Shown: positions 2,671 through 38,800 of the stretch, piece after piece
How the letters are laid out: each line of letters begins with the position of its first letter
Numbering within the stretch: the stretch's first letter is position 1
Source: Clytia hemisphaerica
Taxonomy: Eukaryota; Cnidaria; Hydrozoa; Leptothecata; Clytiidae
Assembly (NCBI GenBank): GCA_902728285.1
Contig: CACVBU010000918.1
Coordinates: 1,011,086 to 1,075,085, forward strand
DNA: 64,000 bases
Direction: 5' to 3'
Program-made: the position numbers and the translations under genes
The notes under the pieces: model-generated
Seen by the model: only the letters and a program-made list of their open reading frames with translations
Database searches by the model: none
Told to the model about the DNA's origin: nothing

Positions 2671-2686
2671 AGGTTTGTGCCCTCAA

Positions 2687-3388: not shown

Positions 3389-3389
3389 T

Positions 3390-7448: not shown

Positions 7449-7542
7449 TTATTGAAAAGATACAACAGGATTCAGAAAATGTTTAAAAAGATTGTAAATT
7501 TTCTGAAGAAAGGTCCTGTCGCTTCGCGATCTAAATTGAAAG

Positions 7543-7650
7543 AGGTCGTTAGACTAGGTCCTAAGTCGTTAGACTAGGTTCCAGTCGTACCGAGTCGGTT
7601 AGGTTGGAAGTAACCAATATTACATCGACGGAGATTTTATGAAATAAAAT
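7543..7650. repeat. DIRS element terminus, right (5' of its genes)
   Basis: Reverse complement of 3279-3388. It has two direct GTCGTTAGACTAGGT motifs and ends in the GATTTTATGAAATAAAAT hairpin. It lies about 95 bp upstream of the long frame's start and presumably carries the element's promoter. Confidence 0.75.
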
Positions 7651-9583: not shown

Positions 9584-12500
9584 GTTTCGAGAATCTCTTT
9601 GGGCTGACATAAATTTGGAAGAAAAACATACCCAGGTATATATGTGAATTTTTATGTTTTCTTTTCTTTTTTAATTCGTATGCCTGGTCAATTCCAAAAA
9701 AGAATGCGTAGAGATGTCGAGGATATCAATCTCTTGACCATTTCTTACGTTCTATTTAGTCTTGCTTCCTGGATGATGGGTAAAACTTGAAAATGTTCAA
9801 TATTACCTCATTTTTAGTTTTTCAAACTGTTTCACCCCTGAAATATCCAATTCAAGCTAAGCCTCCCTGGATATTAGCAAAAATTTCAGAGGTCTCCTTT
9901 GGATATATGCCTATTTTCAAGGCACCCTCCTCGAATTTTCAGGTTTGATAGGCGCCTCACTGTATGGAACATGCCACCTCTCTCTTAAAATAGCGAACAA
10001 ACTTTTTTTTCTACAGAAGCCCCGAGCCCTAAGTTATTTTATTCCATTATGTATAGCTTAACATTCTGCACGATAACTGTATGGGAGTACCAACGGAGAT
10101 TCATGGCTGGTATGCTTTCAAGAAACTGATCGAATCCATCAACGATTACATTAATTTATTCCCCATCCTATACAAGCTGGCTTCAAAGGTAGGCGTGGAG
10201 AAACTGTACTAAGCAAAGCAATACTTTAGACAGCCATTATTCTGCCCTGCCTATTTTGATTTTTAGAGTAGACAGGGCCAAAAGAACAAAGAGGCTCAAA
10301 AAATGCCGAAAAATAGGAGCAGTTCAAGAACAATGCTGGGCCTGGAATTTGTAAAAACAAAACCTAGAATACCTTTTTACCTTTTAGCTCTTTGATGTTG
10401 TGATCGTTTGGGTAAGGTAACGATGCACGAACCTGGATTTGATATGGAGATCTGGATTTAAAATTAACTAACGATCTTTTCCTTACTTCTTTCTATCAGG
10501 AAATCAGGAACAGACATTGGCTACAAGTCATGCATGTCACAAAGAAATCTTTTCAACTGGAAGCCAACATATTCAAACTCAAATTTATCCTAGATATCGA
10601 TTTGTTAAAGTAAGTTTCCATTTAAAGATGATTGAGAATTTTATAAAATGTGGACGATTTTACATCGAGGCCAAATTGTCGTCCGACTCGTACATTGCAT
10701 ACCGTAGCTGTTAAGTTTTGAAATCCAATGGCTCCCTTTTTGATAGCTTTCTACCAAAAGGGAGGATGTCATTGCTCTAAGTTATTCCACTTACCCCTAA
10801 TCTTTCTTTGATTGCTAAATAATGTAAAATAGAGTGGCTGAAGAGTCACCGAAACTGTGGCTTGTCACATCTTACAGTGCTGGCAGTTACAAAGGGATTG
10901 GTTCCCAGTTTCACATGATTGGCTATAGTCAATAAGTTAGGTCATTTTGATGTTTTTTTTTAACCTCTCGAATTCGAATCCAACCGGATTTCGGTGGACA
11001 TAAAGATTGATGTGTGTACTATTGTTTTTTTAGACACCGAGACGCAATCGAAGAGATACTATGTGGAAGTAAAGCTGAGTTAGAATTGGAAATGAAATTG
11101 AGACATATCGAAGAAGAGTGGACTGAACAGGTCAGAAAATCCAACTTCTTTCTAAATGTCATCTCAATGGTTATAACAGTTGAAATATCAGATTGATGAA
11201 TGATTTTCAATAATTTTTGAGACACTGTTTTAATGCTTTTAGCGAATAAACTTTTTGACATCTACTTTTGGTAGATTTCATCTTTTTATCACAATCTGAA
11301 TGTATTCCACTCACAATTACTTCTTTTGTCATCACAATAGATCTTGAAATTCCAATCATTCAAATCAAGAGGTTTAGTATTGTTTGACCAAGATCACATG
11401 AACCATTTGCTGGACACACTTGGTGATGCTAAAACCACACTTTCTGCAATGCTGACATCCAAGTATGTGAAGCCATTACGTGAAGAAGCGGCCACGTGGT
11501 CTTTGAAACTTGATGAAGTTAGCGAAGTTCTTGAAGAGGTGAGTTTTTGCTGTTGTTTTTTAAGGGAAAGAAAAATGACCTTTTCAAAAAAGCTCCTACA
11601 ACGTTGTTCAAATTCTTTTGATCTCATACAAATGATTTTATTGCTTCATGGATTTTTGATTTTCATTTCTAGTGGTTACTTGTTGAAGAATTATGGATCA
11701 ATTTGGAAGCTATTTTTAGCATTGAAAACATGATCAAGGTATGTATGAATGTTCTATCCTTAGGAGTTTTTTTTCTTTTTTACTTAAAAGTGAAACATCG
11801 TGCTGGATCCCATTTTCAAAAAAAAAAGTTCGACCTGCACTTTACATCAGAATTTCTTAGCACTCAAATATTAAAATACTTGTTGTTGTGGATGGGTCGT
11901 TTTGGGTATGTATGTGCGGACGGTAAGGGTTGGCTTTTTTACTTTACCGAGTCTCGGGTCAATTTTCCGCCCATTTTGCCTCTCTGAGGGTAACTATTTC
12001 GCTGAAATGTAGCTCTCTCTAAAAGTTTGGTTCGCACATACCCCAACCCCAACATTCCCTAACCCTAGTATACCACGCCCCGGGTGCACACACTCTAGTA
12101 GACCACGCCCGGGTGCACACACCCTAGTATACCCCGCCCCGGGTGCACACAAATCTTTACGAGGGGTAACGGGTAATGTATCTTCTAAGATCTCTGTCTG
12201 GATGTTTATAGTAACTTTAGTCGGAAATATAATCGAGTTCAACAGTTCTAAAATATCTTTTTTAAGTTTTTAATGTTAAATCACCTTTTTACCCTTTTTT
12301 ACGCCATTAAGCATTGACACTATTGAGGTTAAATATTGATAGATATTCAGCGACATCGAAAACGGAGCCTTCCCAGAACCTTTGTTCGCGCTAAGATGTT
12401 TTAACAAACTAACCAACCGTGATGCAAGGCAGACATGCCCTGCAAAAATATCAGCTTTGCTTTTAGAACAGAAATCTGAACGGAAATTCATTCTAGAGGT

Positions 12501-14840
12501 AAATTCGATTCCGTAATGCACTCATTTTTGGACCTACCTCCGGGTACCCCGGTGGAGGTCCTTTAAATTAACCCATGTTCGTCCGTTCGTTCGTTCGTTC
12601 GTCTGTTGCCAGCTTTTCTCGGGATTGGCTTATTACTTTTTTCTGTTTTTTGGCACAATGATGCAAAATGATGATTCTTAAAAAGTGACGGAGCCTGATT
12701 TTCGAAAACAAAATTTTACCGGCCGAAAATGCCGGAAATATGCCGGAAAAACTGTTTTTTTGACATTTTCTCGAGAATTTATCATTAGTTTTTTTTGATT
12801 TTTTGCTTAAAGATGTGTATTAACAATGTCCAAAACATGGCCGAGTCTGATTTTTGAGAATTTTTTTTTACCGGCCGAAAATGCCGGAAATATGCCGGAA
12901 ATCGCCGTTTTTCTGGATTTCCATTGGACTTTTTCCTTATAATTGGTTGTTTTTTTATTCAAAAACATTATTAATAGCAATGCCCACCATCAAGCATGTT
13001 TCAATTTTCAATAAAATTAATTTTTGAAGCCGGAACTATTTAAAAATCGCCGGAACAACCTATTTTCGCCGGAAAGACATATTTCTTGAATTTCTCGAGC
13101 TGTACTTTATATTTTTTATGAAATTTTGCACACTGATGCAAAATGACAATACCTAAAAAAATGTGACGGAGCCTGATTTTCAAAAAAAAATTTATATGCC
13201 GGAAAAACCGTTTTTTTGACATTTTCTCGAGATTTTATCATAAGTTTTTTCTGATTTTTTGCTCAAAGATGCGTATTCGCAATGCTCAAAACATGGTCGA
13301 GTTCGATTTTTGAGAAAAAATTTTTTTCGGTTGAAATCGCCGTTTTTGCAGATTTTCATTGGATTTTTTTCCTGATATTTCAATGTTTTTCACACAAAAA
13401 TATTACCGATAACAATGCTCACCATCAAGCATGATTCAATTGTCAATAAAACTCATTTTTGCGACCAGAACTTTCTATTTATTTTTCCCCTACAACCCTT
13501 CCCTCTCCCCCCATCAGCAATCAATGATGAATTTATTGGGTTATGCATTTTCCCTAAACGTTATATTTTCTGACTGATTTTTTTCATTTATTTCCTCGCA
13601 TTGCTATCTAACTTTCATCATCAGGTAGGTCCATTCAGCTTGTTAAATTTCTTTTCACACACAGGAACTTCCGGAACAATCAACAAGTTTCGTTAAAGCA
13701 GATCGCTCCTATATGAAATTGATGAAGAAATCCTCGGAAACTGCCAACGTTTTACAGGTATGACAAGTTCCTTGGTATGACAAAGATATTCTTTATTCAA
13801 GAGTTAGCGAATAGAATTTCATGAGCCTTTACCTATTATAAAATAAATTCTAAATGTTAGTTATAATTGGGTTACCTTTGTGTAGAGAGACTTTATTTCG
13901 AATCTTTTTGTCAAAATGAAACTTACATAGACTTCGCTTCAGATTACCGGCCAGTTCAAAACATCAAAAACCGTCGCAAAGGCTAGTCAAAACCACGACA
14001 GTAAACCAAGATAACGGCGACCATTTTACTCTTATGTGAATAGCCTCTGGTATCGATAATACTATCAAATATGGTATCGAAGAATAATCTATATTGGAAT
14101 AAGAAAATTTGAGAATCTTAACTGAACTGTTGGATCTTTTTTTCTTTCTTGTTTGTTTCAGTGTTGTCTTGGTGGAGATGTTTCTAAAGTGTTGACGATC
14201 AAACAAATTTATCGTGAACTAGAAACATGTTTCAAAAGTTTGAAAGGCTACCTCAATGAAAAACGAAAGGTTTTTATTGTAAAGTTAGATAAAAATTTGG
14301 AATGAAGTTAGGCATAAATCTAAGCATTTTTTGTTCTCAACTTCAGTTGAGCTAGAATCTGAGAATGTCTGTCTGTCTGTCTGTCTGTCACCTCAAAGCT
14401 TTGGGCCAGAGACTTCAAATCAAAAATGGTCCAATTTGGCTGAAAATTTGCACACTTGTTCCTTGGGTGAATATCTGGGTTTTTTTTTTTCATTTTTTGA
14501 AAATTTTGATTTTTAGCGACGTGGTCACGAGTTTTTCGCCAATACGAGGCTAAAACTTTTCTTTTATCAAAAATCTTATTTTTTAATATTTTAATTTTTA
14601 TTTCTTATGTTTACAATTGGGCCTACGAGTAATTTGAAAGATACTTAAGTTGAGCCAGTGCGGTTAGTACGTTCGACAGTGATTTATATAGGGGCATATG
14701 TTATTTATATCTTTTCTATCTCAATACAATATTCCTTCTTCTTTTCAGGTTTTCCCAAGGTTTCATTTCGTACCAGACGAAGTGTTGTTATGTATGTTGA
14801 GTAAACGATTCTCCATTGAAACTGTCACTCCTTATATCAG
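9584..14840 (+). CDS. Dynein exons 1-9: linker domain (DHC_N2), first part
   Basis: Exons read as 9584-9635, 10057-10188, 10500-10609, 11034-11130, 11341-11538, 11673-11738, 13665-13757, 14162-14269 and 14749-14840. Diagnostic linker phrases are EIRNRHWLQVM (family: LR.RHW), LRHIEEEWTEQ, WLLVEELWINLEAIFS (W...Q..W.YLE.IF), ELPEQSTSFVKADRSYMKLM, YLNEKRK and VFPRFHFVPDEVLLCMLSKR (family: FPRFYFLS.DELLEILS). The linker is the lever that swings during the power stroke. The first visible exon begins in the middle of the protein, so upstream exons must exist. Splice sites follow consensus, for example TTTCTATCAG|GAAATC and GTTAAA|GTAAGT. Confidence 0.85.
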
Positions 14841-17800: not shown

Positions 17801-20800
17801 TTAATTGCTGAGCATCAAACAGAGAGGTATCAAGTACTATTTTGAGAATCTTTGGTATGATCCGGCTGGGGGTTGAACCCACAAGTTTTCGAACCGTAGC
17901 CGGATGCTCTACCACTGCAATACGGTCGCTGTACTACGGTCACAGCTTTCAGACGTCATGGCTTAGAATTCAGATGAAAAACAGATAATTAGGATATCAT
18001 TTACTGCACATTACTTTGAATGGCTAATTATCATTTTCTTAGAAACGGAGACCCGTAAAACATCTAAGCGCAATCTATCCGGGAGTTTATACTCTGGCTT
18101 TTCACATTTAAGAATTTTCACAATGTCGACTCAAAAATAAAAAACATACCTTTTATGAACTTCCCCTCTGAGATAATTGTTTTCTTCCAGTGAATGGATG
18201 CTAGCAAGACGAGCGCCCATTGCTTGGCAAGCTTTTTCTGCATCTTGCCAATATAGGTATGCTGTTCCGAAGATAAATTTTTTAGAAATCTCGTTTGGCT
18301 TTGTTGTTGTTGTCGGTGTAGTCGTTGTTGTCGTCGGAGTTGTCGTTGTTGTGGTTGGAGTGGTCGTTGTTGTTGTCGGAATGGTCGTTGTTGTGGTTGG
18401 AGTGGTCGTTATTGTGTTAGGAGTGGTCGTTGTTGTCGTCGGAGTTGTCGTTGTTGTGGTTGGAGTGGTCGTTGCTGTTGTCGGAATGGTCGTTGTTGTG
18501 GTTGGAGTGGTCGTTGTTGTGGTAGGGGTGGTCGTTGTTGTCGTCGGAATGGTCGTTGTTGTGGTTGGAGTGGTCGTTGTTGTGGTTGGAGTGGTTGTTG
18601 TTGAAGTTGGGGCGGTCGTTGTTGTGGTTTTATTGGCAGTTGTAGTTGTGATTTTTGTTAGGGTCGTAGGTTTTGTTGTTACAACTTCACAAATGCTAGC
18701 AAGATGCCCGCCACGTGCTTTACAATCATCCTCAGCATCTTGCCAACTTTGGAGAGTTGTACTGAGGTAATAATTCCCTGAAACGATGATGTGGTTCATC
18801 AATATCAAATAGTTGATTGTTGATTTTAGATTAAATTGATTAAGAACACCTTATTGTATTGATAAAGTAAGCATGTATATTTTTATCTCGGTACTGTTAA
18901 TATATCCTCCATTACTGAGGGAGTTTATCCGCTTTTCTATTTGCGTTACATCAAATCCTGATGTGGAGTGCCGAATGCTTTACCGACTGAGTAAGCTACC
19001 CGATCCATGGTTTATTTCAAAAAAAAATTAAACATACCTGCTTGTCCTTTAACTAGGATAGCCAACGAAAGAAGAACTGCATAACTAAATAAAATAATTT
19101 TCAATTCCATATTTGATGTCTTTGAGCTCTTTCTTATGAAGTAATTAGATGTTGAATGAATTTGCTTGATATCTTGACCATTTTTATAGCAATTTTTCAA
19201 AGGCTATTTCTGGTCCTATACGTGATCGATGTCATAAAAAACGCGTAATAAAATGTAAATCTAACGTAAAAAATGGTACGTGGTTTGATTTATTCAATTG
19301 GCAGGGTTAAGTGTCCTCAGAACAATCACGTTTTATCCATGCAATCGATTGTCTGTGCAGTGATAATATAAAATCCTTTGGCAATAACTTATATTTCCTC
19401 GATTGGCTTCAATCACTCTAAATAAGCTTGAAATACCGACAGTGAGATTTTCATCTTTTAAACCAATTGAAATTGAAAGATCCTAGTTTTTCAATCATAC
19501 CCTAGTCAAACTTGCTTGAAAAGGGATTGTGATGCTTAAGGGCCAGGACACACGTGAAGGTTAAAAATATATGTCTCGATCCAAAAGAGGAAGTCAGTCT
19601 AATTTGATAATTATGGAAGGCTTACCTGTTTAATGCCAATTTTCGTCCGGGAAGTTTTACTCTGCCATTAATTATCATTGATCTAATTTGGTCTTAATCA
19701 CAACAATTGATAAGCGTCATAAACTTTTTCTTCGAATTTTTTAATGACGTGGGAAGAAATCGGGGAAAATAGAATAGGCAAGTCGACTCTTGACTTGAAT
19801 GGCTCTTTTTAGCTTTTAGTATCATTTTGCGACGACGAGCGCGTTTCCGCTAGCCTTCGTTCGCAATATTCACTCATTTTTCAACAGGCTAAGTAGAAAG
19901 CAAGAAAGGTCTTACCCCGCTTAGTATATCCATCCGCTTTGCTTCTAGAACGAAAAATCAAGCTGGAATTCGTTCTAGTTTATTCTCAGGGTAAGCTTTC
20001 CTTACTTTCAGTTTAGCCTGTAAAGAATGCCGTAGTGTGAACGAAGGCTATAGGAAACATGCTTGTCGTGGTAAAACATCTATCAAAAAACAAAAAATTA
20101 TCCATTATTTTCAATACACTTAGACTTTGAAGTTCAAAGTGCTAAAAAATAAGAATATCAGAGAAATTTACAGCTTCCAACCTCTAGATATGAAACATGA
20201 GGGTATTTGTAGTTTTTGTGATCTTTTTTTCTGACTACATTTGACCTTTTCTAAATAAAGGCTCTCTCTCTATCAGCTTAACCGGTTAAGACGAAAAACT
20301 TCTTCGGAGATTTTCCTTCAAAAAAGTTCGGAATTTTTACAATCTCTCTACACCTCTCTGTTAGTATGAATGCTGCTTGGGACTACAGTTGATGCTCTCT
20401 TATTCAACGTTCAAATGTGCGATACCAGTCCATTATTCGATAATATTGAAAGTCACCGTCAAAAAGAAATTTCATTCACGACGCTATATCAAGTAGATAT
20501 TCGACAAGAAAAATCGGATACCGAAAATTATTCAGTCGAGCTTGATGATATTCGACGAAGCGAAGCTGAGCCTAAAGGCTCGGAAAATATGACGAAAAAT
20601 CTAAACTCGAAAAATATTTCCCATACTGAACTCTGTACCGTGTGATAACTATTACTTATTCAATGAAAATTGAATTCCCCCTTTAAAATCGAATTAGAGA
20701 GCGTCAATTGTACTTTCATTGACTTTACATTATAAAATCTTATTTTTCATTTCAAATTTCCCCACTTCTAGTTTTCGATTGCAATTCAACAACGTGAAAG

Positions 20801-23800
20801 ATTCTCGATGCAATCAGCATTTGAAGCACGTAATTCACAACGAGGAAGCTACTTCGATTATTTGTTGGACTCTTCATCAATCACCGTCACACCAGATACA
20901 TCAGTCACTGCAGTAGTCGATTCTCAAGGAGAAAAAATGTACCTCGATAACCATGTAAGCTCGATTCAAACCATGTTCTAACCTTACAAGTGGTGTATCC
21001 ACCGAGGGGGGTAGGAGTGGGGTCCAAAATTGATCAAAAAGTTTTCCCAATAGAATCTTTAGGTGTCTGTAGTTTTTGTGACCTGTTTCTGGCTACCTTT
21101 AACCTTTTTAAGGCCTCCTTTAAAAGTTGTTTGGCCTTTTTAAAACAAAAATTTTTGCTTGCGGAGCCCAAATTACAAAGGAAATTTTCTATGACATGAA
21201 ATTTCATGTTTTCTTCACTGTTTGTGACCTTTTCTCCGAAACTTGTGGCTACATCTTTGCTTGCAATCACGGTTCGTCTTGAAGTGAAATGAAGTTGATG
21301 TTATCCATCAATGTTTGTGATACTGATAGCCTTCTGCTCCTCCTCCTAACGAAAAAGTATAAGGTCTACGAATCAGTCTAGGTTTGTGATTAAGATTATT
21401 TTTGACCAATAGTTTCTAAGCTACTATTGTTTTGTGTTTCTGAAAGATATGGAACCTTAACGTCTGAACATATCAGTGAGGTTCTAAACCTTTTGAAGAC
21501 CTTAGAAGGCCTAGAAGCTATTTGATGAAATTTTATCGGCTTTGTTGCACCATCTGGCACCATGTTAATAAGTAAGCACAAAACTACTTACCACGTCCCA
21601 AGGGGCTTCTTCGCCAAAGATTTTTCAATTAACAAACACTTATTTATTTCTTTTTCAGATTTTATTGGAAGGTTACGTCGAGACATGGATGTCAAAAATC
21701 TTGAGCGAAATGAAAAACTCAGTCAAGCAACTCTTATCGACCTCTATTCAAAAGTTGGATAATGGTGTACCTTTCGAAGAAGTCCTCTTGAATACGCCCG
21801 CTCAAATTGGTGTCATTAGCTTTTATTACTACTTCACCAAAGAAACTGAGCGCGCGGTATTGTTTTTGCGCTCCGATCGTAAATCATTGACTAACTTAGC
21901 GAAGAAGTTTTCAGGATTGTCCAATCGTTTGAGCTATATGCTATCACGTGGTGTTTATCGTCCAATGAATGTTAATCTAAGCAAAACACAAAAGATCAGA
22001 GTTGAAAATGTTTTAGGTGTAAGTAGAATGTTTTTTGTTTCTGTTGACTTTTTTCATTGGGTGAAGGGACGGCGGATATATATCATTTCAATGATCTACC
22101 CATTGGCATCTCGCTCTTTGAACAGGCGTCGTTTCTTTGGACAAGCGTCAAATTATTGAAAACTCACACAATGGGATCAAAACTCTTTTGATACCCCCTA
22201 AACAATATATCTTCAATCCTCTATGAACAGTTTTTATTTTGTTGAATTAAAACTGTAATGTTCTTAAGCAAACGAGAGAAACATAACTTGTTGTCATTTT
22301 TTCGACTCATCCTTTATTCTTCGGATGGTTCCGACTTTAATGAGCTATCTCTTCTGGATTCTTTACGATATTTCAGACCCCCGGTCCCCTGGATCTACCA
22401 GGCTTTTAAAGTTAGGGTTGGGGGGGGGGGTGGTGAAACTTTCTTCTGTTACAACCGAATCACAAGGATAAGGTGATATTGCCTCAAATCTAATTAGGCG
22501 AGACCAATTTAATTTGTTGTTCTACGGACAGATCGTTAGAAAAATATGGGTCGGTCGGCAAAATAAGAATAAATTTTTCATTTATCAGGGTTGGTAAGGT
22601 ACCGAGAATATTTTCCAATAAGTATCTGGATCAAAGATTCATAATAAAATTTTAGTGTATGGAATGCTTTTTATGATTTTTCAATTTCTTGAATTAATTT
22701 TCAGCTTTATTCAAGTTTAATTTTTAAAAATAACTAGTGTGTAAAATATATTGTAGTGGAAATTCGATATTATTATGTTTTTGATTTTAGCAAAAATAGG
22801 GTCGTTCGGGCCCGTAGAACAACAAATTAAATTGGTCTCGCCTTAGCAGGTAAGAAACTGGACAAAACGAACGTAATATCCAAGCTGACACACAACGTTC
22901 ATTCAACGTTTATCTATCTAGCGTTATATGTACGTCGTGAACATTAGATTAACATCGAAACAGCTGTTCGCCAGCTGGGTTATCGCGCTCTCAATCTAAC
23001 TGGTACAATTCTTCCATCATTCCGATATATACATTTTGTTACTTTCTTTTATCCAGCTTTGTTTCTTCGCCGTAAGCACCATCGATAAATTGATTGCCGT
23101 CAAAATGCGAGATACGAACGATTTTGAATGGCGTCAAACATTAAAATGTTATGCAGGTGATGCCCAGTACCTTCAAACTACCCGAATCAATTCGCCCCAG
23201 CCCCCTCGAAGTCATACGCCTACACGGAAGAATATGTCGCCACCCAGGAGCCAAACACCGCGAATCGAGACGATCGATGAGAGGGGCGTCCAACCAGTTC
23301 ATATCAAGCTTCTAGACTTCTCTTTCACCTATCAAAATGAATTTCATGGCTGCCAACTAGGGTCCGTTGTCTGGGTAACGTCAGACAAAGCTTTTTTAAA
23401 TTTGATGACTTCATTGACCAATGGGAAAGCAGGATGCGTGTCATGTGACCAACCAACGGGACGAAGTGGCATCATCGATGTAAGTTTATTTCGAACCTTA
23501 AAAATGAAAATTCTAAAGGCGATAATTAAACTTCAATTGTTACTAAAACTTTTTCTGCTTTGAGTGCATCGTTGATTTTGAAAGTTCATTGCGACTTTAT
23601 GTACTGTTATTATGATCTAGTCCGTATTTTATGTTATCGTTATGTTTTGATTTGGAGCATTCCTCTGTGAACTTAGCTATTTACACTTGGCGCTGTAAAA
23701 GCAGGACACGTAATGAAACCCTCCCCCACTTCAAAGAATATTATCCCCAACATACCCTGATATTTCATCTCCATCCGAATATTACATTGTTAACGCTTGC

Positions 23801-26800
23801 AGGATTTTTGTGCTCTAAAAATCGAATTTGAAATCGACACTCATTAAAATCGGTGTGATTTCCCTTTCCCGTGACATTTGACATCTTCATATTATTTGCA
23901 TTGGTTAAGAAACTCTCTCTAGGTTCATTGGCACACGTGTGTATTGACCTTTTTCATGACATTCATGGTGTCAAGTCAAGTCTTATGAGGAAGCACCCGA
24001 AAACTTTATTGTATCAAACATTACGTAATAATCAACGATATCATTATCAAGGACTTACCATTAACCAAACCAAACTGAGGTCAATGCGCATATACATACG
24101 TGTTGGCAATTACGTAATAAATATCATGGATTATATAAGTCAGTCTTCTTTACTTTTTACAGTGCTTGAAAATCCTGTGTGGACAACACTGTTTCACATT
24201 GGATTGTGCATCACCGCTCAGTTATCAATCAATCGGTCATTTATTCCTCGGTATTATTGAGGACGGCTCATGGTGTACATTCTCCAACTTCGATCAATTG
24301 TCGTCAGTGAAGATGAATCTTGTCCAATATTTTCTGTTCAACATTCACCAATTCTTAAAACAACCTGGTTTCAATAAGCTGGTGAGCAACAAAGGGACAA
24401 ATCACGTTGATGGTTTCCGTGTTGTAAGTGAAAATTAAATGTTTGATACTTTTTTGGGATTTAAAACCTATATCCTCGCGGAATATCTACCGATGATTAA
24501 TTTCTTTAATACCTCTTCTATGGGAAGAAAGTAATTTTAGTCCTTTCATATATAATTTATCAACTCCGTCTACGTAACGTTTACACTTTTCAATTCAGAC
24601 ATCCGTCCATCCAAACTGTGGAGTTTTCCTGACCACAACAACATCCTACATTCACCAACAATGTCCACCTTCCATCAAACTACATCTTCGGAATATCAGT
24701 ATCGCCAAGCCTGATCTTCAACGTCTACTGAAAATACAATTGATCGCCAGAAGCTTCAAATCGTATAAAATCATCACCAATTATTTGGTTTTGTTGAAAG
24801 ATTGCGTCAAAAATCAACTGTAGGTTTGAATTATGCTTTTTGCAAATTTTGCAGCAGTTTCTCTTTACAGATTTTCTGCAAATTTTTAAATTAATTTTTT
24901 TTTGGAAATATTGATTATAAAATGAACCATCACAGACCGTTTATTATATGAATGTCTGCTTAGAATACACCTTTCAACCTTTAAAGTCTGTGGAGACCAG
25001 GTTCGAGTTTACCAGGAAGGATGGTGTCAGAATATCTGAAGTCGTTACAATGACATCCTCGCAGACTAAGATAGATGTATTGTCTTAAATCACAAACTAA
25101 AGTGTATCCAGAAATAATTGGCAGTTGAAACAAGAATTCCTGTATTTGATATTTCACAGAAAAATCCTACCTTTCGGGTCCCATATCTTCCGAAGGACTT
25201 CCGTTTGGCTGGAAATTTGACCGTTAAAAATCGCGAAATTTTCTACAAAAAATACACTCAAATATAGCGCTTTTAATTCTCTAAAACAAGCAAAACAAAT
25301 TTCCACAATTGTATTGGAGAAACAAAGGTTACAGGCCTTATCTCCACTTATATGCCAATTATATCTGGGTACACTTTAACTCTACACTAGAATTCTACAA
25401 CTCATGACGAAAAGAAAAGGATACATTTGAAATTGATAGTATTTTGCCTGCTAAATTGTCTGATGCATGTAAGCCGTCATGGTCCTCTCTGATGGATAGT
25501 GAATTATGGAAATAAACTGAATACTTTTTACAAGCGGCCATTGACAAATTAAATACGTAGAATTTTACTTTTTTTTTCTTTCCATAAAGCGGTCGTAGTG
25601 TAAAGGTAAAGCGAGGTGCTCATCTTTCCCAGCTGACATTCAACGTGGTTTCAACGTTTATCTAATGTTCACAACGTCCATATAACATTAGGTAAACGTC
25701 ACAACAGCGTTTTGTGCCATACCAAAGACTTGAAAATTGGCACTTGATATCTCTCTAATTTATGCTCAGCAATTAAAAAGAAGGATCGAGGGTAGGTGGA
25801 GCAATCCACCTTAATCTCGGTCCATCTTTTCAATTGCTGGCCAAGATATCAAGTGTTATCGATTTGTATCATAGCACTGATAATGTTTTAAATGAACGAA
25901 AAGCTTAAATGCTGAAAACAAAAAATTATTGTTCAAATGTTTTTTTTTATATTGATTCTGGCATACATAATTTATTGGAACTAATTTTTGCGAGAATTCA
26001 TTTTAGCGTTTTTGAACCTGCGAAATACAATTTTTTTTTTAATTTTATTGAAAAATTTGAAAAATCCTTAAGAAAATGAAAGAAATTTGTCCAAAAAAGG
26101 ACAAAACCGCGAAAATTAAAACCCGTGAAATGCTATTTTTCCGATTTTTTTTCGACCGCGAATATTATTTCCAATAAGGTAAGTGCTAATGAATGATACT
26201 TTTTCATCATCCTCATCATAGGCACCGTGATGTGTTCACCACGAAAACATACGAGACGATCATTACACAAGCGTGGAAGAATTACAAGACATTACACACA
26301 CAAGAGAATCACCACAACAGCATCAGTAACCCTAACACAGCTGGTGGTGATGGATTCATTAATAAATATCCAAGTGCTGTCTCATCTGTTACCACATTCT
26401 CACAATCTCGTAAGTTGTCGTCGTTTACTAATCGTTTTGATACTTCAATTCGTGATATTCATGACGAAATGTTCAATACGGAAGCACACAAAAAAGACCG
26501 GATGTTTGCCACTAGTTTTGAATTTAGACAATGAAACTAGTGGCAAACGCCCGGGCTATTTTTAGTTCTTCCGTATGAAAAATTACGTCATGAATATCAT
26601 GAATTATCCACAATCCAATAGTATTGTTTATGTTTATGTTTCTTTTTTGTCAAGTAGATGTAAAATACAAATGCACTTAGCTCGAGTATCGGTATCAGAT
26701 ATTACTTACAGTGCTATCTATTAAGTTGACACGCGATCGACTAAATTCAGGACGGAGCCCGAGGGGGGGGGGGGGCGTACAGCAGAAAATTTGTGAAATT

Positions 26801-29800
26801 CGTATCCTTACAGTGCATTTTTCTCAAATTTTCAACTCTTTTAGAGCAGAAAAAAACAAATTTTCCTGCATTTACTGAAATATTTGCAATGCATTTAATC
26901 GAAAAGTCCCCTTTCTGCTATCTTGAAAAACATACCCTTACGCTGCACACTAGTCAATTTGTCTGACTGCCTTCCCGCTCCCCCACTCTCCCCCGTTTCG
27001 TTTATTCACAAGATTACATTGTATTTTAGATGGTGGTGTACGTGGTGGTGGTGGCGGTTCCCAAACGCCCATAACAACGCCCGCAGTACAAAATGCTGTG
27101 TCAGCAGAAATTACGAAATTTGAATTAAACACCATTTGTAAATCCGTCTTGACCATCGTCAATGCTTCATTATCTGATAGTGTAATTATTTCTTTATTAG
27201 CTCTTTGAACAGTCTTCGGGATACATCAATGCCTCAGCTCAGGTTGCCCATGAAAATAGACAAACTTTGTGACCACAAAAATTATCGATTTTAAGTTTAA
27301 ACTCCTCTTGATTTTTACAAAAGTTTTAAATTTACCTCCATACAGAATTGTACCATGGTTTAAAGGGACAAAAAAGTAGTAAAATGTAAACATTGCGCAA
27401 ACCACGTTACAATCGAAACAATCAAAATCAGCCATATTTGTTTTGATTTTTTGTTTTGACATGTGATATTTGTTTTGATTTTGTATCCCGCTGCATACGG
27501 TTTGTTTACAAATTTCGTCAGTACTTTTATGTCCCTTTAATGACTTGACTTGGTGGTGTAACTAGTTATTTTTCTACAAGTCCTCTGAGCGGTTTACCCT
27601 GTATAAAGAGTGTTTGCAAATATGAGAAGCTGAAAATAAAGTCATTTTAAAGTTAGTAAGCAACAAACTGCTCTCTTTTCAAATTTGTACCCAAGACCTC
27701 GCATCATGCCTTTCCATTTGCAAATTCCATTTACAACTGTCTCTCTCTATTTCGATCTTCAAGGAACCAAGACTTTTCTTCGAATAAAAGAAAGATTTAA
27801 ATCGTTGAGAGCAGGTTACACTACTTTCTACTGAAGGAGACCAATGATTTAGCACGAATTACAGAAAGATTCGAATAATAGAAGTTCGAATTATGGAGAG
27901 AAGTAAACTGTAATCTAATCCGCCGCTTCCAGGTATTATTTTAAACTTTACTTAATCATTTTTAACTTTTCAGGATTCGATGTTATTTAAAGAAATTGTT
28001 CGAGGTGTGTTCGGTGACCATGCTGACTCAGCACTTTTTCCATCATACGTTCTTCCTGAAGAAATGTCACTTTTGGAGATTGTTAAAAAGACTATCGATG
28101 AAAACGGGTTATCTCATCATAAATTGTTCGAAGATAAAATCATGCAGTTGTATCAAGTATCACAAATCAATCAAGGTTTGTAATCACGTAAATCTCGCAT
28201 CTTTTTTAGTAGGCAATTATATGGAGGGGTGTCGTCAATATTTTCCCCGATTTCCGTCAAACCGTCAAACAAAAACAGAAAGTCCGCCACCAAAAATTCA
28301 AGAATTCTGTCAAAAATTCCGAAAATTTGGACTATTACTTTCCTTCCGAACAATTTTTGTACTAAATGTCGATTTTCGGGACTAATAAAGCCTAGTTTGA
28401 CGAGGAACTTGTGAATTTCCGTCAAATTTCGGCTATCTGTTTGAAAAAAATGAGCGATTCCGCTCCTCTGCCAACCGAGATTTTATTCATTTATTTAAGA
28501 AGATCTTAGACAGTTCCCTATATTCTGTAAATTGAGGCTTGACCAGGCTTGACTTTTAGGAATATGTGAACCCATCACTGTTTTTAAATAGACTTTTTAA
28601 TGTTCAATTGAGGGTGTTCCATTTAAAATATAAGACGAAGACGAACCCTTCCAAGCCAAAAAAATTCTCTAAAATGTGTATGTTTTCCCCCTGGAAAATG
28701 AAAAAAAATTGCAGAAAAAACCTTTGAAAAATTCTTCTTCGCACCTTTACGTCAGGGTGGACGAACGAACATCAGTCTTTTACGCTTTGCAAAAAAAAAA
28801 CTCCTTCCCTGGGCTGGAAATTCTTCATGGATTACCCCAGGGGGGGGGGCCTGGAAAAGTTTATCCGACCCACTGTATAGATGAAAAGTGGAATGGCCCA
28901 TTCTTGTATCGATTTTGATGCATTTCAGGGATCGTGATATGCGGACAAAGCAAAACAGGGAAATCAACTTTGGTTCAAACACTCATCCAATCGTTAGGTA
29001 TTTTAGCCGAAGAAACGGATAAAGAAAACCACATAACTTATCATCAAGAACACATTAACGTTCTAGCGGTAAAGTTTTCTTATGAAATTTTTTGAACCTT
29101 TACATTCAAGAGTGAATGTAAGAGTTCGCATTGCTGAGCTCTAAAAAGTTAAATGTCTTAAAATGAAGGACGATTTTATTTTTTAAGATTGATATTTTTT
29201 ATTTTTGAACATAACTTTTGAACCAATGAAGTAAAATTAGAAAGTAATACACCAAATTTTAAGTTAGGCTTTCTTCTGAATTATTCCGAAACAATCTTTG
29301 AAAACTCTTTCTGCTACTACCTGCAATTTAAATTCAAAGAGGGTAACTTATTTGTGGCACACCGGTAGTTAGAGTGAGAATGGCGATTTCAATACTTGTA
29401 CTTTACTTCATTGGATATTTCGATTTAGGAGAGGTTTAATGACTTCTAGACTATATTCTCAATCTGTACCGTTTCCTCTGAACCAATCGTTTTTCAGATG
29501 GGGGTAAGAAACGTGTAGTAACATTAAAACATAAAATGTCCTAAATTTATAGGTATCTAGCTTAGAGCAAATGTTTGGTTGTATAAGCGAGGCGGGTGAT
29601 TGGGTGAATGGCGTGTTTACAGTGGCGTTGAAGAAAGCCAATCAAAGTTTGTTGCAGCATAAACAATCAACGTGGATTACACTGGATGGACCCTTACATG
29701 ATGGATGGTGCTCTGCTTTGAATGGTCTCTTCGAACAGAGAAAGGTATACATTGTGCATAGTTCTTTCGTCTCAGACTGATTTCCACTTCAGCAAGATAC

Positions 29801-32800
29801 AAAAGAAGGCTTTCCCGCCTTCAAACATAACAAAAGCATTCTTTTGACCACTGGGTATAATATGCGATTTATAAAGGATTCAAATTCAGATTCTCCTGAC
29901 TGGTATGTTTTACACTGGTAAATTCGACAAGTCGTCTATCTTCTGCATTTTTAACAGTCTTTCAATTAATATATCTTACAACTGTGAGCGATTGAGTTAA
30001 ACTATCATTTATCTTCATAGGTTTACATGCAACCTGACATGAAGCAACACCATCTGAACAAGAATGTGACTTTTGTTTACGAAACACACACGTTAGATCA
30101 CATATCTCCAATTGTCTTTGCAAATATGGTACGAGTTAATCGATTCATTCTTTGCTTGTTCATTTAAAAACTAGGTCACAGTGTGGATGTAAACCACACT
30201 GAAACGACCGCCTTCCATCACGCATCACGCTCGCGAAAGAGCGCGCGCACATTATTAACGCCTACATGTCATCTCCAGTACATTTTAGATTATTCATTGA
30301 AAACAGATTACAATATAGTCATTTTTCATATCTCGATTATTTAATTCCAAATAAAAGACATTCAGGGGAAAAAAAAGAGAAACACCTGGGTAATCTAGTT
30401 AAAAAAACCGAAAGTAAATGGTAGACAAAGTAATGAGCCAAGGCAAAACGAGATTAGCGTACCACTATGAAAGAAACCGCCTCCGGCCTTTGATTATTCC
30501 ACTTTCACGCCTAAAAGGGCAAGACAGAACAGGAAAAGCCAAAAGATTGAGGCTAGAAATCAGCTCTCACTGGGATTCAGAAGTTTGATGGTTAAACTGT
30601 GTGTAAAGTAAAGAAATCTAAATGTGAAAAAATAAAGAATTTTGTAAAAAAGTTCACAACCACGGACAAAGTATCAGCCATTATAAATCCTTAAACTTTT
30701 TTCGTGGGTCACTTGGTATCTAAATAAAGTAACAGTTTACCGAGTTATTAGCTACTCCGTCTCAGCAAAGTATGAGGCTTTTTCATCTCAAAATTCAGCA
30801 TAATTCAACAAGATTTCAAAAAAATACGCTAATTTTCTGTGTACAATCCATTTTCCGTCTCAGGCGTAAGACCTCGCTTTGACCACCGAATTTCAGATGA
30901 TAGAGTATTCTCCATTCAGTGCTTGGTAGCTGAATCATTAATTTTCATCATTTCGATTTCATTCTAGAGTATCATATACATGGATAACTCAGCACTTGGT
31001 TGGAGGCCTCTTGCGAATGCATGGTTAGCTAAACAAGATCAAACTTATTTCCATGTAAGTTTAACACAAAATCCACGGGGACGTACCGATGTTTATCCGA
31101 CAGGGTCGATCGGAAAATTTTTCTATTTTTCTTTCTGACAGGGTCCCAAATTTACCCAAATTTACTTGTCCCCCCCCCCGGAACAAGTAGTAATTGATAA
31201 AGTAGTAAGCTCACGTGTCTACGTTATGGAATGAAATGATTTTAAACATTACGGCATCTTCCCCACAAAATTAATCAAGCACTGATTAGCCGTTGTTCTC
31301 AGTCCATCAGGATCTAAACAAAGGAAGTACTAAACGTCCCTGTCGCAAACAAAGGATACATCGACTTGCTTGTTATTACTGGGACGCCTTCTCTGCTGAA
31401 TTTGAAACATTTTTTTATCAATTTATGGAATGATGGTCACATGTCTAAGGCGTCAGAGCCACAAACAAAGAGTTCCCAGTTCTATTCCTTACTTCCTCTG
31501 ATATTCTGTTCAATTCATAGATAGTCGATATGGTGGGCCGTGGACCCCGTGAAAACAGCTGAAAGACTAATAAAGCCATGTGTTATTTGACTATCCACAT
31601 GAAATAGAAAATACTGACTCTATTTATCAATGAATTAATTATCAATTATCATTTGTTTGTTTGTAGGTACTTCAACGTTCTTTCCATAAAAGTGTTGACC
31701 GATGTCTACAATTTGTACAAGATGAGGCTAGGTTAGTTTTCTTTCGTTGATTCACTTCAAACTTTCATTGCCATCTGAAGTTATGTCAAGATCACAGTAG
31801 CATAGACAAAAGGGGTGCAAAATTTGTGTTTGATTTTTATAGTAATAAAGTCAAAAAATCTGTTCTCTGACACAAATTTCGCGCCCTTTTTGTCTACACT
31901 ACTGGATCACGTGGTATAAAAAAGTTTGAGCACTAAAAACTACTTTCGGTCTTTTACAGTTTATATTTTACGTAAAATTCTTGTTTATTTTCAGATGTTG
32001 TGTTACTTTATCAGAAGGTTCATTGTTTTCTTCGTGTCTGAGCATGTTATCCAGTTTGTTGAGAGTAAGTTTAGTTTCGTAGTATTGTCAATTTTTGGGA
32101 TGCTCGATTTATTTTTTTCCTTTACTTTGAATGAAAAATTAGTTGGTATGATATATTTGGCACGTGGATTTGTTTTATTGTCCTGGGCAAAAGTTCGAAA
32201 TATTTTTGGCTATTTATTTTCCAAAGTCTATATCCAAACTTTTAGGATTTTTTAGTACTGACTTTTAGTAAAAGAACAATATAATTTCAACATAACAACC
32301 GTGAAAAAACCCATTTTTCAAAAATTGAAATTTTAATATTTTGACTTTTGAAAATATTAAGACAAAAACACTTAGAGGTTTTACTCAGGACCACAAAAGG
32401 TTACTACAGGCCAAATATCTTACTACAGGCCAAATATCTCGCTTGTGATCATCCATTTAAAGATGAAAAATACAGTACTTACATGCAATATTCGTTCAAC
32501 GTCCAATCACAGGGTAGAAATCATTAATATTGATACGAATAACCACAAATTGTGTTTCCTGACAGCTGATTGGTTGTAAGCCCTGCCTATTCTAATTGTG
32601 AATTAAAGTCGGCAAAACGCTGGTTGTCTAAAGTCAATGCATAGCCCTCTTTCGACGTCAATGCAAAGTCTTCTTTCAATCTTTTCGAAGCAAAGATTTT
32701 AACACCAAGTTTGCGCCCACTTTTCGCCTACTCAAAGAATTAGAATAGGCAGGGCGAAAAGTGGACCGTCTAAACTAGAGCTAAGTGACGTGAAATTACT

Positions 32801-35800
32801 TAATACGTCACTTGAAATCAATCAGCTGTTAGACCCATGAAGTTTTGATCAATCCTTTCTTCTTTACTGCATACAGGATCACCAAGAATCGTTAGCAGGA
32901 GAACTCCACATTGAGAGATTGTATCTTTTCTCTTTGATATGGACTTTTGGAAGTTTATTGATCCATGATCAAGAGAGACATCAATTCAATGCACTTCTTT
33001 TGTCACTGTCCAATGCGTATGTTTTTAGTGTTTCTGTATATCTACTGTAATCATTTTTCTTTGTTCTGGGTATATGATTGGGTTGAAGGAACAGGAAAAT
33101 GAGCTGTTGGCAGATAAATAAATAGTTACTTATCAACACTTATCTCACTATAATCTACTGCTTTGCAGTAACAATACCGATGTATGTTCTTGTGAGTTAT
33201 TTATACCCTGCTATACATCGTTTTTTCTTGTAATTTTCAGACTAATGTTCTTAAAATGTTCTTAATAAGTTTACTTTAATGACTTAAAAGGGGATTGAAA
33301 TCAGCCTTTCTTCTCCATTTCTAAAATCTGAAGCTGTGATTGTTCTTAATCTTTAAAAGTTTTTTACCCATTCTTATAAAACAGCGTGTTTGTTTAAAGT
33401 ATACCATTCGTCATTGCCAACTTGTCTCCGTCGTGTTTCTACTGGTATTTCACCAAACCTTTGTCGTCTGTTTTTTTCAGATTGCCCGATGATGATCGAG
33501 AGATTTCAGTCTTCGATTATTTCGTTGACGAATCGGGTGAATGGGATTCGTGGGCCACTCGGTAAGACCATTTTATTATATGCCACCCTAATTATTGAGA
33601 GGGTTAGGTATGTTCCGTCCAATATCATTCGATAATGGTTCAATAACGCTCGTGGTTTATTTTCTTCAATAAACGGAGAACAAAAAACAGTTCTGTTACA
33701 TTGGTTTCATGATCTTGTTGAAAGTAGTTACACGCTACCTGAACGACATATTGGACAAACACTTACTGTATCGCGAAAAATAGTCTAGCAAGCTAGACGA
33801 CTAATTCATACATAGTAGAAATAAAGCAAAAAGTAATAAAGGGAACAATTTTAGTCGTCTAGAAACCTTTGTGCACTAACTCCAAACAAAAGAAAAGTGT
33901 CAATATTTGCAATTATAATCTTTTTCCCGCTCAAAATAATTCTTGAGAAAAACATGTATGTGGATTTGTGTATTGAAAGTTTTTCATTTGAGTTGATTTT
34001 GTTTTGAGAGTTTGTTATTGCTTGATAAATTGTTTTCTCGCTACGCAAGTTTCTGCGTAGCTAGCCCCTGTATCTATAAGGCTGGAACACCGGATTCTTC
34101 CAGTCGTTTATACAAACTAAATCCCGTATTATTATTAGTATTGGTATTATTAGTATTACACGCATTATAAACGACTCCAGTCTACGCGAAAAACAGCAAT
34201 GCGATTTTTAATTAAGGGTTTTGGCGTGTCCCGGTGGACTCCCGTTTATCATACGAATATTTCTATATTTCAATCTAAATTTCTCAGTCACCTAGTAAAA
34301 TATTGTCTCTAATTTGAAAGTTTAAATTAAATCTCTTTGTAATCCGAACATCAGACTTCCAATTCGAGTTCGAATTAGCAACATTTAACTCAAATTTTTA
34401 ATTCTTAATTCTAATACTAGATTATCAGAAGCAAGCTTGGACGAAAGTATTGATTCTTTTGGACAAATCTTTGTGGAAACTGTCTCCTCCGTAAGTATAT
34501 GCTGCTAAAATGAACTAAAAGTAACTTTTTACAACCTTAACCATATTTGTCAAATATATCATTCAAACCGTAATTTATTGAATATTTAGGACAAAATAAG
34601 CATTTTAAACTCAGGGAACGTTTTTCTAAAGCTTTTGTTAGAATATAATAGCTATTTATAAGAACAAAGGAAATGCTCGGTGTTTGCTCACTTTGGGCGT
34701 GATGAGTGACGTCATCAAAGATATTTTTGTTCAAAGTTACCTTATGTGACAAGGATCTTGTGTGCCAAATTTCATCCACAAAGACCAACTAGATCAAAAG
34801 TTAAGGGGTGGTACAGGAAAAGCCCCAACCCTAAAGGCATACCGGATAAGTGGGATGGGGGAACCTGGGAACCTAAAGTGGGAACCTAAATGAACACCTG
34901 AAAAGTGGGATGGGGGAACCTAAGTGGGAACCTAAATGAACACCTGAAAAGTGGGATGGGGGAACCTAAGTGGGAACCTAAATGAACACCTGAAAAGTGG
35001 GATGGGGGAACCTAAGTGGGAACCTAAATGAACACCGGAAAAGTGGGATGGGGGAACCTAAGTGGGAAACCTAAATGAACACCGGAAAAGTGGGATGGGG
35101 GAACCTAAGTGAAACCTAAATGAGCACCGGAAATATGGGGAACTAAGTGGGAACCTAAGTTGTTTAATTATTAATAGAATTGAAATATTTTTCTTTAAAA
35201 ACAAATACATAAGCGAAAAATAAGACTTGCTCGATAGCAAGTCTTATTGTAGTTTAAGAAGAATTCCTTTATGTTTAAATAAATAGGTCTATTGAAAATG
35301 GCGATTTTGTGTTTACTTTTCAAATTTTTGAAAATTTTGAAAAGATGGTGCACATATTTTTTACCTGAAAAGTGGGATGGGGGAACCCGGGAACCTAAAG
35401 TGGGAACCTAATTTGTTTATTATTATTATTTTTCTTTAAAAACAAATACATAAAGATAAGAAAGATATTATATGCAAGGAAAGAAAAAACCTTTTATCAT
35501 AATAAGAACACTAGTTATTTACTTTTTACATTACGGTTCGCAAACAATAATGTTGAAAATAAAACAAAGGGAATTTATTTATTCAATTAGCTCAAAAAAG
35601 CATGTTTATTTATCAGCAGTTTTATAGTGCATCTTTTTGAAAGGTTCTTTTTAGTAAATTGACTTAATTGACTTTAAACTTTAAACTTTAAACCGTCATA
35701 TCTTCAAATCTAGAAGGAATTAGAAGTTCGTTCATAGCTCGATGGATAACTTAGAGCCTCTTCTTTCTTTTGCACGGATCTAATTTGCTTGAATACAGAA

Positions 35801-38800
35801 TCTAGTAAAACATTATTTACGATCTAGTTTTAGTTCACTCTTGATGCAATAAACATTGTTTTTTATTAGCAGCTCCAATTTTCGGGTCAGGGCTGGGGTC
35901 GCTTAGCATTTAACGGATTCTAGCTCGTTTTTCTTTCTGTACCAACCAAACAGTACAGCGTGTGAATACACTTCATTAATTAAAAATGTTTGATAGTAAA
36001 ATAGAACATATTGCACGGCTTGCCACGTTTCAATACACATAAGCATAGATCCACGGGGGGGCACTCAAGGTAAACGACCTACCGTACGTGCGGCCCTTTT
36101 TTCCAAGCTTCCCAAAGTACACTGTAAGGGTGGAAATTAGCAAAAATGAGAATAAGTGCACTCTAAGGGTTTAAAATTTGGTCAAAGCCAGTCCGGCTTT
36201 TAGAATTTCATCCGAACAAGTGTCATGTTTTAACACTGGGTAAATTTTGGAACATCAAATATGTCCATCCCTATCAGGATCTGTTCTAGAACATGTTGAC
36301 CAAGAAAAAGATCTAGGAGTGATAATCGATAGCGACCTGACCTTTGAAGCCCATATATTCAGTAAAATCAAGAAAGCTAACTCTATCGTTGGCTTGATTA
36401 GCAGGAGCTTCGAATTTCTCTCACCAGATATGTTTCGAACGCTTTTCATTGCATTTGTCAGACCCCATTTGGAATATGCACATGTAGTATGGTCTCTAAG
36501 GCTAATCAAACATATCAATGCAATCGAGGGCGTCCAACGAAGAGCTACAAGGCTAGTTAGTTGCTATAGAAACTACTCATACGAAGATCGGCTACGACTC
36601 ATCAATCTACCTAGCCTAAAGACCAGGCGGCAAGTTGGTGATATGGTGGAAGTTTTCAAGAACCTCCACATTTATGACGAGTCTATAAGATCAGAGAAAT
36701 TTACTCCTCGAACACGACCACGACGTCAGCATGATTACGAGCTTCAAAGGAACTTTGCTAATGACAGTATGAGAGGCTACCAAAGCAACTCTCTTTTTTA
36801 CAGAAGTGTGAAACCTTGGAATGATCTAGAAGAAGATATTGTTGAAGCACCATCCTTACAAGTCTTCAAAGAGCGTTCGATAAAAGAAAGGGAGAAAAAA
36901 CTTTATAAAATGTAAAATCAAAAGTTCTGTTTCATAGGAGGTCAATAGACGTGCGAAATATATTGCTATAAAAAAAAAAAAAAAATAAAATAAAATAAAA
37001 AAAATAAAAAATTAGGTTCCCACTTAGGTTCCCCTATCCCACTTTTCCGGTGTTCATTTAGGTTCCCACTTAGGTTCCCCCATCCCACTTTTCAGGTGCT
37101 CATTTAGGTTCCCACTTAGGTTCCCCCATCCCACTTTTCCGGTGTTCATTTAGGTTCCCACTTAGGTTCCCCCATCCCACTTTTCAGGTGTTCATTTAGG
37201 TTCCCACTTAGGTTCCCCCATCCCACTTTTCAGGTGTTCATTTAGGTTCCCACTTTAGGTTCCCAGGTTCCCCCATCCCACTTATCCGGTATGCCCACCC
37301 TAAAAGCCTAGTATGAATGGGGTTAAAGTAAACAACAGAATTGAATTCAGAAAATTGCTATTCTTAACTTTTTGGTTTTTGGCCTGAAAATTATCTTAGA
37401 CTGTTCTTATTTTCACCACTTTTTAAGTATTTTTGCCACATTCTTTATAGCATCGCACAAAATTCTTGATCAGTCAATATATGGAGATGGGAAATAATAT
37501 CCTCCTGGCAGGCCCCACTGGATGTGGAAAAACCAAAATTATTCAAGACCTTCTCAAAAATACTGGTAAATATCTTTCTTATTTTTGTCACGTGTTTGAA
37601 AATCGTTTCCTATCAGCCCTGACGATTCCAAAGGGGACTGGATTCTAGCTTACATAGTGGGGTCGTTTAGCATAATTTACGGGAAAAAATAAGATCTAGC
37701 TGAAACTTTTTCCAGACCTTCTCTATAGGATGCTTATGCCTCAGGAAAAAATCCCCTAAAATCCCACTGGTGGAACATCCCTTTTTTGGGACATTTCTTT
37801 TTCACCAGGCAAAACCCTAAGGGCGAAATTTTTTGAAAATTTCAAACTCATTTTCAGACATTATCAAGTTTACCTAACTCAAGATAATTCACGCAGAAGA
37901 TGCTATTTATGGTCAATTTTAGACTAAAATGTGAAAAGTGGAACACTTTAAAGGTGGAACTTGCGCATGAAATATCTCGAGTTAGGTAAAGGAAATCGGC
38001 TATAACCGTTTAAAAGTCTTCTATATAGTTTTCGAGAGCTTTCGAATGGTATACATGATATTGTCTAGAAATAAGTTTGAAATTTTCAGTCTTAAGTCTA
38101 GCGTTAAAACTCAGAGTTAAAACTTTACCCTACGAACCTACTTTAGAGCACTTACAAATCGATTGTGGTTTCAAAACACCCCGGTGAATTTCCCTTTTGT
38201 GCCAAGTATTTTGTCCCTGGTTGTAGATATTATTTTTTTTCCTACAAACAGCCTGCATTTTTGTAACACGACCACACTAACAAGGTTCGAATGGCTCCAA
38301 ATGTCTGTATCTGTGATAATTGTAGACATTTGACGTCATTCAGCTCTGGTAAACTCAAGCCCCTTCCCATTTTCTGGTGCAAAAATCAGCTAGGTAGATA
38401 AATCTGAATTGAAAATTTTGTTTAACAACAGCTCAAACTATCTCTTTTTTTAAGCAAAAACTACATAAGCTCTTCAATTCGATTTTCAATGTGATTGAAT
38501 TTTCATCGAATAAGGAAGTGTATCGAATAATTAGAGCGTCGTTTATTAGAGTTTCTTACTGACGGTGACTTTCAATATTATTGAATAATGGACCGTATCG
38601 AATCAAAGAACTTTGTCAATAATACAATCTTTTCAACAATCAAATAATTAAATCAAATCAAATAATTGCCTTCTTCTTTCCATTTCAGAATCAAAGAACA
38701 GGGTGACGTTAAACATAGCATTTTCAAATTCAACTGATGCTTCTTTCCTTCAAAATTTCATCGCTGGTAATCTCCATCATCGACAAGGTAACTCAGAGAA

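Follow-up and report, generated by a model that had tools for sequence, protein, structure and literature searches.

A divergent dynein heavy chain gene of Clytia hemisphaerica with a degenerate AAA1 site

Gene architecture and the AAA1 domain

The window analyzed here is a stretch of 64,000 nucleotides from the Clytia hemisphaerica genome (C635:1011086-1075085, where C635 is contig CACVBU010000918.1 of assembly GCA_902728285.1), and it lies within a gene for a divergent dynein heavy chain whose AAA1 domain has, by its sequence, truly though not totally lost its catalytic residues. If this is a single gene it is about 130 kb long, running from matches to the tail domain DHC_N1 upstream of the window to Dynein_C downstream of it. 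Five collinear DHC_N1 matches occur at C635:980664-993743, all of them below the 28.3-bit cut-off (the best has 27.7 bits); the first DHC_N2 matches of the gene are inside the window, and a search of the genome (417 Mb, 951 contigs) found Dynein_C at C635:1110178-1110462 (2.2e-13). Fifty exon cores, selected by eye because they looked dynein-like, were concatenated with the spliced AAA1 domain, and the resulting sequence matches the Pfam families DHC_N2 (1.2e-38), AAA_6 (3.2e-25), Dynein_C (1.2e-22), AAA_7 (7.1e-19) and Dynein_AAA_lid (2.2e-10). The linker (DHC_N2), AAA1, AAA3 and the C-terminal domain, all features of dynein heavy chains, are thus present and in order. Dynein_heavy (AAA6) reaches 14.6 bits in the same concatenation, below its cut-off, and AAA4, AAA5, AAA6 and the stalk are assigned by phmmer and by eye only: residues 404-668 of the query align to DNAH9 residues 3607-3877 in AAA5/AAA6 (30.2 bits), the stalk region has 9.0 bits against DNAH9, and the AAA4, stalk and microtubule-binding exons were read by eye.

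The AAA1 domain is encoded by three plus-strand exons. Exon A (23057-23479) contains a Ser/Pro-rich insert ahead of AAA1 (about 23189-23260) followed by the Walker A region; its 5′ end is a splice-score prediction, and its open reading frame (ORF) alone has no Pfam match. Exon B (24163-24423) contains the Walker B region and exon C (24599-24819, with its 3′ end placed by eye) contains sensor I, and their ORFs alone match AAA_6 with E values of 3.6e-7 and 2.5e-8, respectively. The two introns are of the GT-AG type and both are in phase 0 (gt follows 23479 at 23480 and ag precedes 24163; gt follows 24423 at 24424 and ag precedes 24599), and all four of these dinucleotides are identical in a second copy of the locus described below. 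When spliced, the domain matches AAA_6 over profile positions 1-200 (78 bits, E 7.6e-22), from residue 81 of the spliced sequence, which bears out the open frame across three exons that an initial annotation of the window had proposed. The spliced domain also matches 84 distinct sequences of solved chains at 0.001 or better, with DNAH5 first (8.1e-18) and the cytoplasmic dynein 1 and 2 heavy chains, which are motor chains, at 1.7e-14 and 8.1e-14. The AAA_6 and DNAH5 values rule out a chance resemblance to AAA1.

Alignment to DNAH5 places GPAGTGKT, the Walker A sequence of motors, opposite CDQPTGRS (23444-23467), the Walker B acidic pair DE of CFDEFNR opposite SN in TFSNFDQL (24277-24300; D to S and E to N), and FLTMNPGYAGR opposite FLTTTTSYI-H, whose sensor I segment TTTSYIHQ (24635-24658) has Thr at the position of the sensor Asn. 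All three strings are on the plus strand exactly where the initial annotation had reported them. Neither a Walker A of the form GxxGxGK[ST], nor the acidic pair, nor the sensor I Asn is present, and these are the AAA1 features of a competent motor. The alignment is free of gaps from ahead of Walker A through Walker B, as the initial annotation had it for the flanking sequence in general; beyond that it is not, since sensor I is one residue short (YI-H vs YAGR) and there are further gaps between Walker B and sensor I. Likewise, the earlier wording "fully degenerate" is too strong, since in the P-loop T-G-R-S still stands opposite T-G-K-T (K to R, T to S) and the hydroxyl residue is kept. The pattern G....GK[ST] is absent from every plus-strand frame between 21.0 and 27.9 kb, and a hidden alternative exon that would restore the P-loop is rejected for that interval.

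The initial annotation overlooked P-loops further along the ring. Among the cores, the strict form occurs in only two, those of AAA2 (28943) and AAA3 (37511). AAA_7 matches AAA3 at two places, in both copies of the gene, and the AAA3 P-loop, Walker B and sensor I all look intact. Dyneins have a canonical P-loop in AAA4; measured by eye against this yardstick, AAA4 of the window gene looks degenerate and without a P-loop.

The second copy and purifying selection

Much of the gene is present twice in the assembly. In window coordinates extended along C635, the region from 1.5 to 47.4 kb has a second copy, with gaps, at 100.7-139.6 kb, near the point where the contig ends (141.4 kb), and the region from 67.0 to 99.9 kb has its second copy on another contig, C273. 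Non-coding divergence between the copies is 3.3% (1865 of 55,860 aligned bases), and the AAA1 motifs are identical in both.

In the 50 cores (2293 codons) the copies differ by 71 synonymous and 21 non-synonymous changes, which gives a dN/dS of 0.076 (binomial P about 1e-30), and the trimmed cores have no stop in the gene frame; the two shifted frames of the same cores contain 134 and 145 stops and give dN/dS values of 2.7 and 1.7, respectively. The cores derive from 49 anchors, two of which ran into introns and were trimmed, one of these being split to make 50; without trimming the count is 2316 codons, 71 synonymous and 23 non-synonymous differences, 5 gap codons, 2 stops and a dN/dS of 0.083. 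The anchors were chosen after a tabulation of how the copies differ in many ORFs had been viewed. The three AAA1 exons by themselves have a dN/dS of 0.117 (10.5 synonymous and 4.5 non-synonymous differences in 301 codons, P 3e-5), and the AAA1 domain alone has 4 synonymous and 1 non-synonymous in 220 codons (P 0.009). The four amino acid differences in the AAA1 exons (at 23075, 23141, 23186 and 24307) are all outside the three motif segments. Because dN/dS is 0.076 over 2293 codons, the window gene is not a pseudogene, and a pseudogene lying beside an intact paralog, the circumstance that the initial annotation had named as fatal to its claim, is rejected on the same value and on the neighboring copy having the same AAA1 motifs.

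What the second copy represents affects gene number and not the reading of AAA1. We somewhat favor its being the other allele, misjoined in the assembly, over a tandem duplicate. The collinear homology begins only at window position 1542, and C635 has DHC_N1 matches only once while C273 has none, so the second copy is without a tail; yet both copies look constrained. Its 3′ half is on a separate contig, and undetermined bases stand near the joins: 747 N in C635, along with single N that stand alone. On the other side, the end of the first copy's homology and the start of the second are within about 0.82 kb of each other, as in a real tandem unit. If the second copy is an allele, the dN/dS given above would be a ratio of polymorphism rather than of divergence. 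The 747-N gap is at C635 window coordinates 66159-66905 and the single N are at 141428 and at C273:1587539, near the ends of homologous blocks; these positions suggest assembly joins around both copies.

Relationship to other heavy chains and probable role

The linker and AAA1 domain appear nearest to outer-arm gamma/DNAH5 chains. Linker queries match the outer-arm gamma heavy chain best (2.1e-38), then 9fqr_I3 (1.8e-35; listed under the name CFAP57, although its 4730 residues suggest a heavy chain), DNAH5 (1.4e-28) and the next at 4.5e-24; the linkers of cytoplasmic dyneins 1 and 2 are less similar. DNAH5 and the Chlamydomonas outer-arm gamma chain (7kzm_C) are among the best solved-structure matches of both regions, the YQNEF segment included, but DNAH5 has GPAGTGKT and CFDEFNR where the window gene has CDQPTGRS and TFSNFDQL. 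For AAA2-AAA4 the best match is 9y6s_5X (2e-14), followed by the outer-arm gamma chain. The 3′ half has DNAH9 as its top match (4.2e-20) and is nearest to DNAH9 and DNAH10 rather than DNAH5 (2.8e-16), so placement is not uniform along the gene.

Exact GPAGTGKTE occurs at 12 sites in the genome and exact CFDEFNR at 15, none of them in the window gene or in the C224 and C18 genes described next; such exact patterns overlook conservative variants, for example GPAGTGKSE with a DE pair on C649. Exact YQNEFLG is found on C412 and C577 only, in both cases with CFDEFNR, and therefore outer-arm gamma-type genes with an intact Walker B exist elsewhere in this genome; the window gene seems to be a further, divergent chain beside them. 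Two more divergent heavy chains, also overlooked by the initial annotation, are without the AAA1 catalytic Glu. One (C224:1687049-1859157) has Walker A GTNGTSKT, with one Gly lost, and LDK at Walker B; by eye its AAA2 and AAA3 P-loops are GSCATGKST and GDVATGKSQ, and the AAA_7 search lists no match on C224. The other (C18:1681982-1764451) has Walker B CFNK, and its Walker A exon was not found in the 3.5 kb upstream. These two share with the window gene the loss of the Walker B Glu and differ from it in the residues that replace it, in contig and in best match. The C224 AAA1 is closest to 9y6s_6z (1.6e-13), then to one more putative chain and then to cytoplasmic dynein 1, so its loss and that of the window gene look separate, as judged from best matches; the C18 chain best matches cytoplasmic dynein 3vkg_A (2.3e-8) and DNAH10 (2.8e-8). 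Matching hits to the C18 chain also occur on C770, C772 and C327, and this pairing suggests a second copy or allele. That the three chains each lost AAA1 catalysis by different substitutions, while the window gene (and by eye the C224 gene) keeps AAA2- and AAA3-type P-loops, and that they form a class of non-motor rings, AAA3-gated nucleotide switches or scaffolds, that arose more than once, is a tentative idea to which we give rather low weight.

In dyneins AAA1 is the principal site of hydrolysis, and closure of the AAA1-AAA2 gap moves the linker and the stalk, as described in PMC7215579. With no Lys, Asp, Glu or sensor Asn at AAA1 this cycle should not run in the window gene product, and because AAA1 hydrolysis appears lost no dynein power stroke is expected. 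With P-loops retained at AAA2 and AAA3, a ring devoid of nucleotide is unlikely. These two sites would bind it, either in a structural capacity or as a slow switch, and the protein might be a scaffold or assembly factor associated with microtubules or the axoneme. A scaffold or slow switch that has nucleotide at both sites and runs no AAA1 cycle is our best reading of the ring. We think it quite likely that the gene encodes a long dynein heavy chain paralog that has lost AAA1 hydrolysis (and probably tight binding there too), makes no power stroke and is under purifying selection, a protein of the same kind as vertebrate DNHD1. The initial annotation's interpretation is supported in part: its non-motor dynein under selection agrees with the dead-looking AAA1 and the low dN/dS, and of the alternative exon with GxxGxGKT that it had held out as a counter-argument none is evident in the 21.0-27.9 kb interval. 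The gene encodes a real, constrained and probably non-motor dynein heavy chain, a new example of a known but poorly understood kind.

Several points weigh against this interpretation. The remaining T-G-R-S makes weak nucleotide binding at AAA1 possible. The two AAA2 exons have 1 synonymous and 3 non-synonymous differences in 114 codons, which leaves constraint there unsupported. In a run of C near an exon end (80570) the C273 copy differs in length by two bases, which is either a frameshift or an assembly error. The genome searches with AAA_8 (PF12780), AAA_9 and MT (PF12777) list no match on C635, and the core model omits several exons between the anchors.

DNHD1 (human, mouse and zebrafish) is an orphan heavy chain, related to dyneins, that belongs to none of the named classes. 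PMC8754002 describes it as possibly a "ghost gene" and perhaps on its way to pseudogene status, and according to PMC9916431 its loss disorganizes the sperm flagellum. The likeness of the window gene to it is one of description rather than sequence, both being orphan dynein-related heavy chains, and the window gene may be its ortholog. Whether the gene is that ortholog, required to build the flagellum of sperm or motile cilia, is to us close to an even question, leaning slightly to the negative. It has the dynein architecture in a divergent form, outer-arm gamma/DNAH5 chains are the nearest to its linker and AAA1, and PMC9749982 names Dnah5 as a paralog of Dnhd1; but the argument is made from descriptions, the AAA1-degenerate C224 and C18 chains compete for the name, and the 3′ half is nearest to DNAH9 and DNAH10. 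No DNHD1 chain is among the PDB matches listed for AAA1, the linker, AAA2-AAA4 or the 3′ half. No account of the AAA1 motifs of DNHD1 turned up in the literature searched; the nearest to one is in PMC9916431, which places one variant in the hydrolytic ATP binding site of DNHD1.

The resemblance of the linker and AAA1 to outer-arm gamma/DNAH5, together with the exact YQNEFLG and CFDEFNR on C412 and C577, could also be read as the mark of a duplicated outer-arm chain of the DNAH5/DNAH8 class that is decaying into a pseudogene, in keeping with the ghost-gene and pseudogene views of DNHD1 in PMC8754002 and with the two bases by which the C273 copy differs in one exon. We regard this as very improbable, and it is already disfavored by a dN/dS of 0.076 and stop-free trimmed cores in a gene long diverged from the known classes. 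Somewhat less improbable, though still unlikely, is a slow motor or microtubule switch that AAA3 continues to drive: GPTGCGKT and FIDDIHLP are present, with AAA_7 matches in both copies, but known dyneins move linker and stalk through the AAA1-AAA2 gap (PMC7215579), and AAA4, at which ATP binding is needed for yeast dynein motility according to PMC7683685, looks degenerate here. The preferred interpretation, a chain that makes no power stroke, takes together the dead-looking AAA1, the AAA2 and AAA3 P-loops and a dN/dS near 0.08, and suggests that such chains are kept for a role of another sort; the AAA3 Walker B and the remaining TGRS are the residues on which that role is testable.

Remaining exons and other elements of the locus

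The linker exon cores, all on the plus strand as are those of the ring, begin with a by-eye anchor at 10084-10185 (4 synonymous and 0 non-synonymous differences between the copies), followed by 10488-10598 and 11035-11142 (the latter with 3 synonymous and 1 non-synonymous), both in the concatenation that matches DHC_N2 at 1.2e-38. The core at 11374-11538 lies in a DHC_N2 match at C635:1022429-1022626 (window 11344-11541, E 2.4e-5). The core at 13665-13751 (ELPEQSTSFVKADRSYMKLMKKSSE), matched by DHC_N2 at C635:1024747-1024854 with an E value of 0.887 alone, was pooled with other linker cores in the query that gave the outer-arm gamma match of 2.1e-38. The by-eye anchors at 14168-14266, 14749-14802 (VFPRFHFVPDEVLLCMLS) and 20847-20960 were included in the linker queries, as was the linker C-terminal core at 21662-22015 (DHC_N2 positions 375-402, E 0.028 alone).

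Past AAA1, a core at the AAA1/AAA2 junction (27977-28159) aligns in part to 9y6s_5X and 7kzm_C. The AAA2 core at 28928-29005, identified by alignment to structure chains and by the strict P-loop scan, has GQSKTGKS at 28943-28966; it is followed by the AAA2 Walker B core (29556-29732, WITLDGPLHDGW), placed by the AAA2-AAA4 alignment, by a late AAA2 core (30066-30131), a by-eye anchor within the Dynein_AAA_lid stretch (2.2e-10), and by the AAA2/AAA3 lid core (32904-33011), which is in both that alignment and Dynein_AAA_lid. The AAA3 core with GPTGCGKT (37481-37561, P-loop at 37511-37534) is within the AAA_7 match at C635:1048515-1048667 (window 37430-37582, E 3.9e-5), the core at 38700-38777 is within the AAA_7 match of the concatenated cores, and the core with Walker B FIDDIHLP and sensor I SLNPT (39333-39518) is within a second AAA_7 match at C635:1050391-1050627 (window 39306-39542, E 2.9e-11). 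The AAA3 small-domain core (41346-41468) comes from the AAA2-AAA4 alignment. AAA4 appears to start at 42445-42585, a by-eye anchor within a stretch matched to DNAH3, and to continue with the core at 43235-43333 (GNLITVTSAPNQMLC), where the P-loop looks lost, and a by-eye sensor I core at 45044-45130.

Two insertions are present in the first copy and not in the second. The larger (2528-8708, 6.2 kb) has overlapping minus-strand ORFs, one for a 1352-aa recombinase of the phage-integrase type and one for an 804-aa reverse transcriptase, and we take it to resemble a DIRS-type element. The other (34841-37294, 2.45 kb) lies between oppositely oriented copies of a 46-bp minisatellite together with an inverted end of 16 bp, and has a 223-aa ORF that is LINE-like by eye and has no Pfam match. 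Repeat matches swamped a tblastx comparison of the locus with C224 and C105.

Intronless ORFs of about 310 aa at 51643-52587, 58870-59787 and 61681-62619 (plus strand) and 46515-47468 (minus strand) have weak matches to rhodopsin-type seven-transmembrane (7TM) receptors (the best 1.2e-6) and form a repeated receptor-like cluster within the dynein gene. Two adjoining long ORFs in the same gene, at C635 window coordinates 91647-94061, are also receptor-like by eye: an extensive extracellular portion is combined with a 7TM region. Lastly, a 21-bp tandem repeat of 15.6 units at 18303-18629 is open in several frames, one reading of it being Val-rich.

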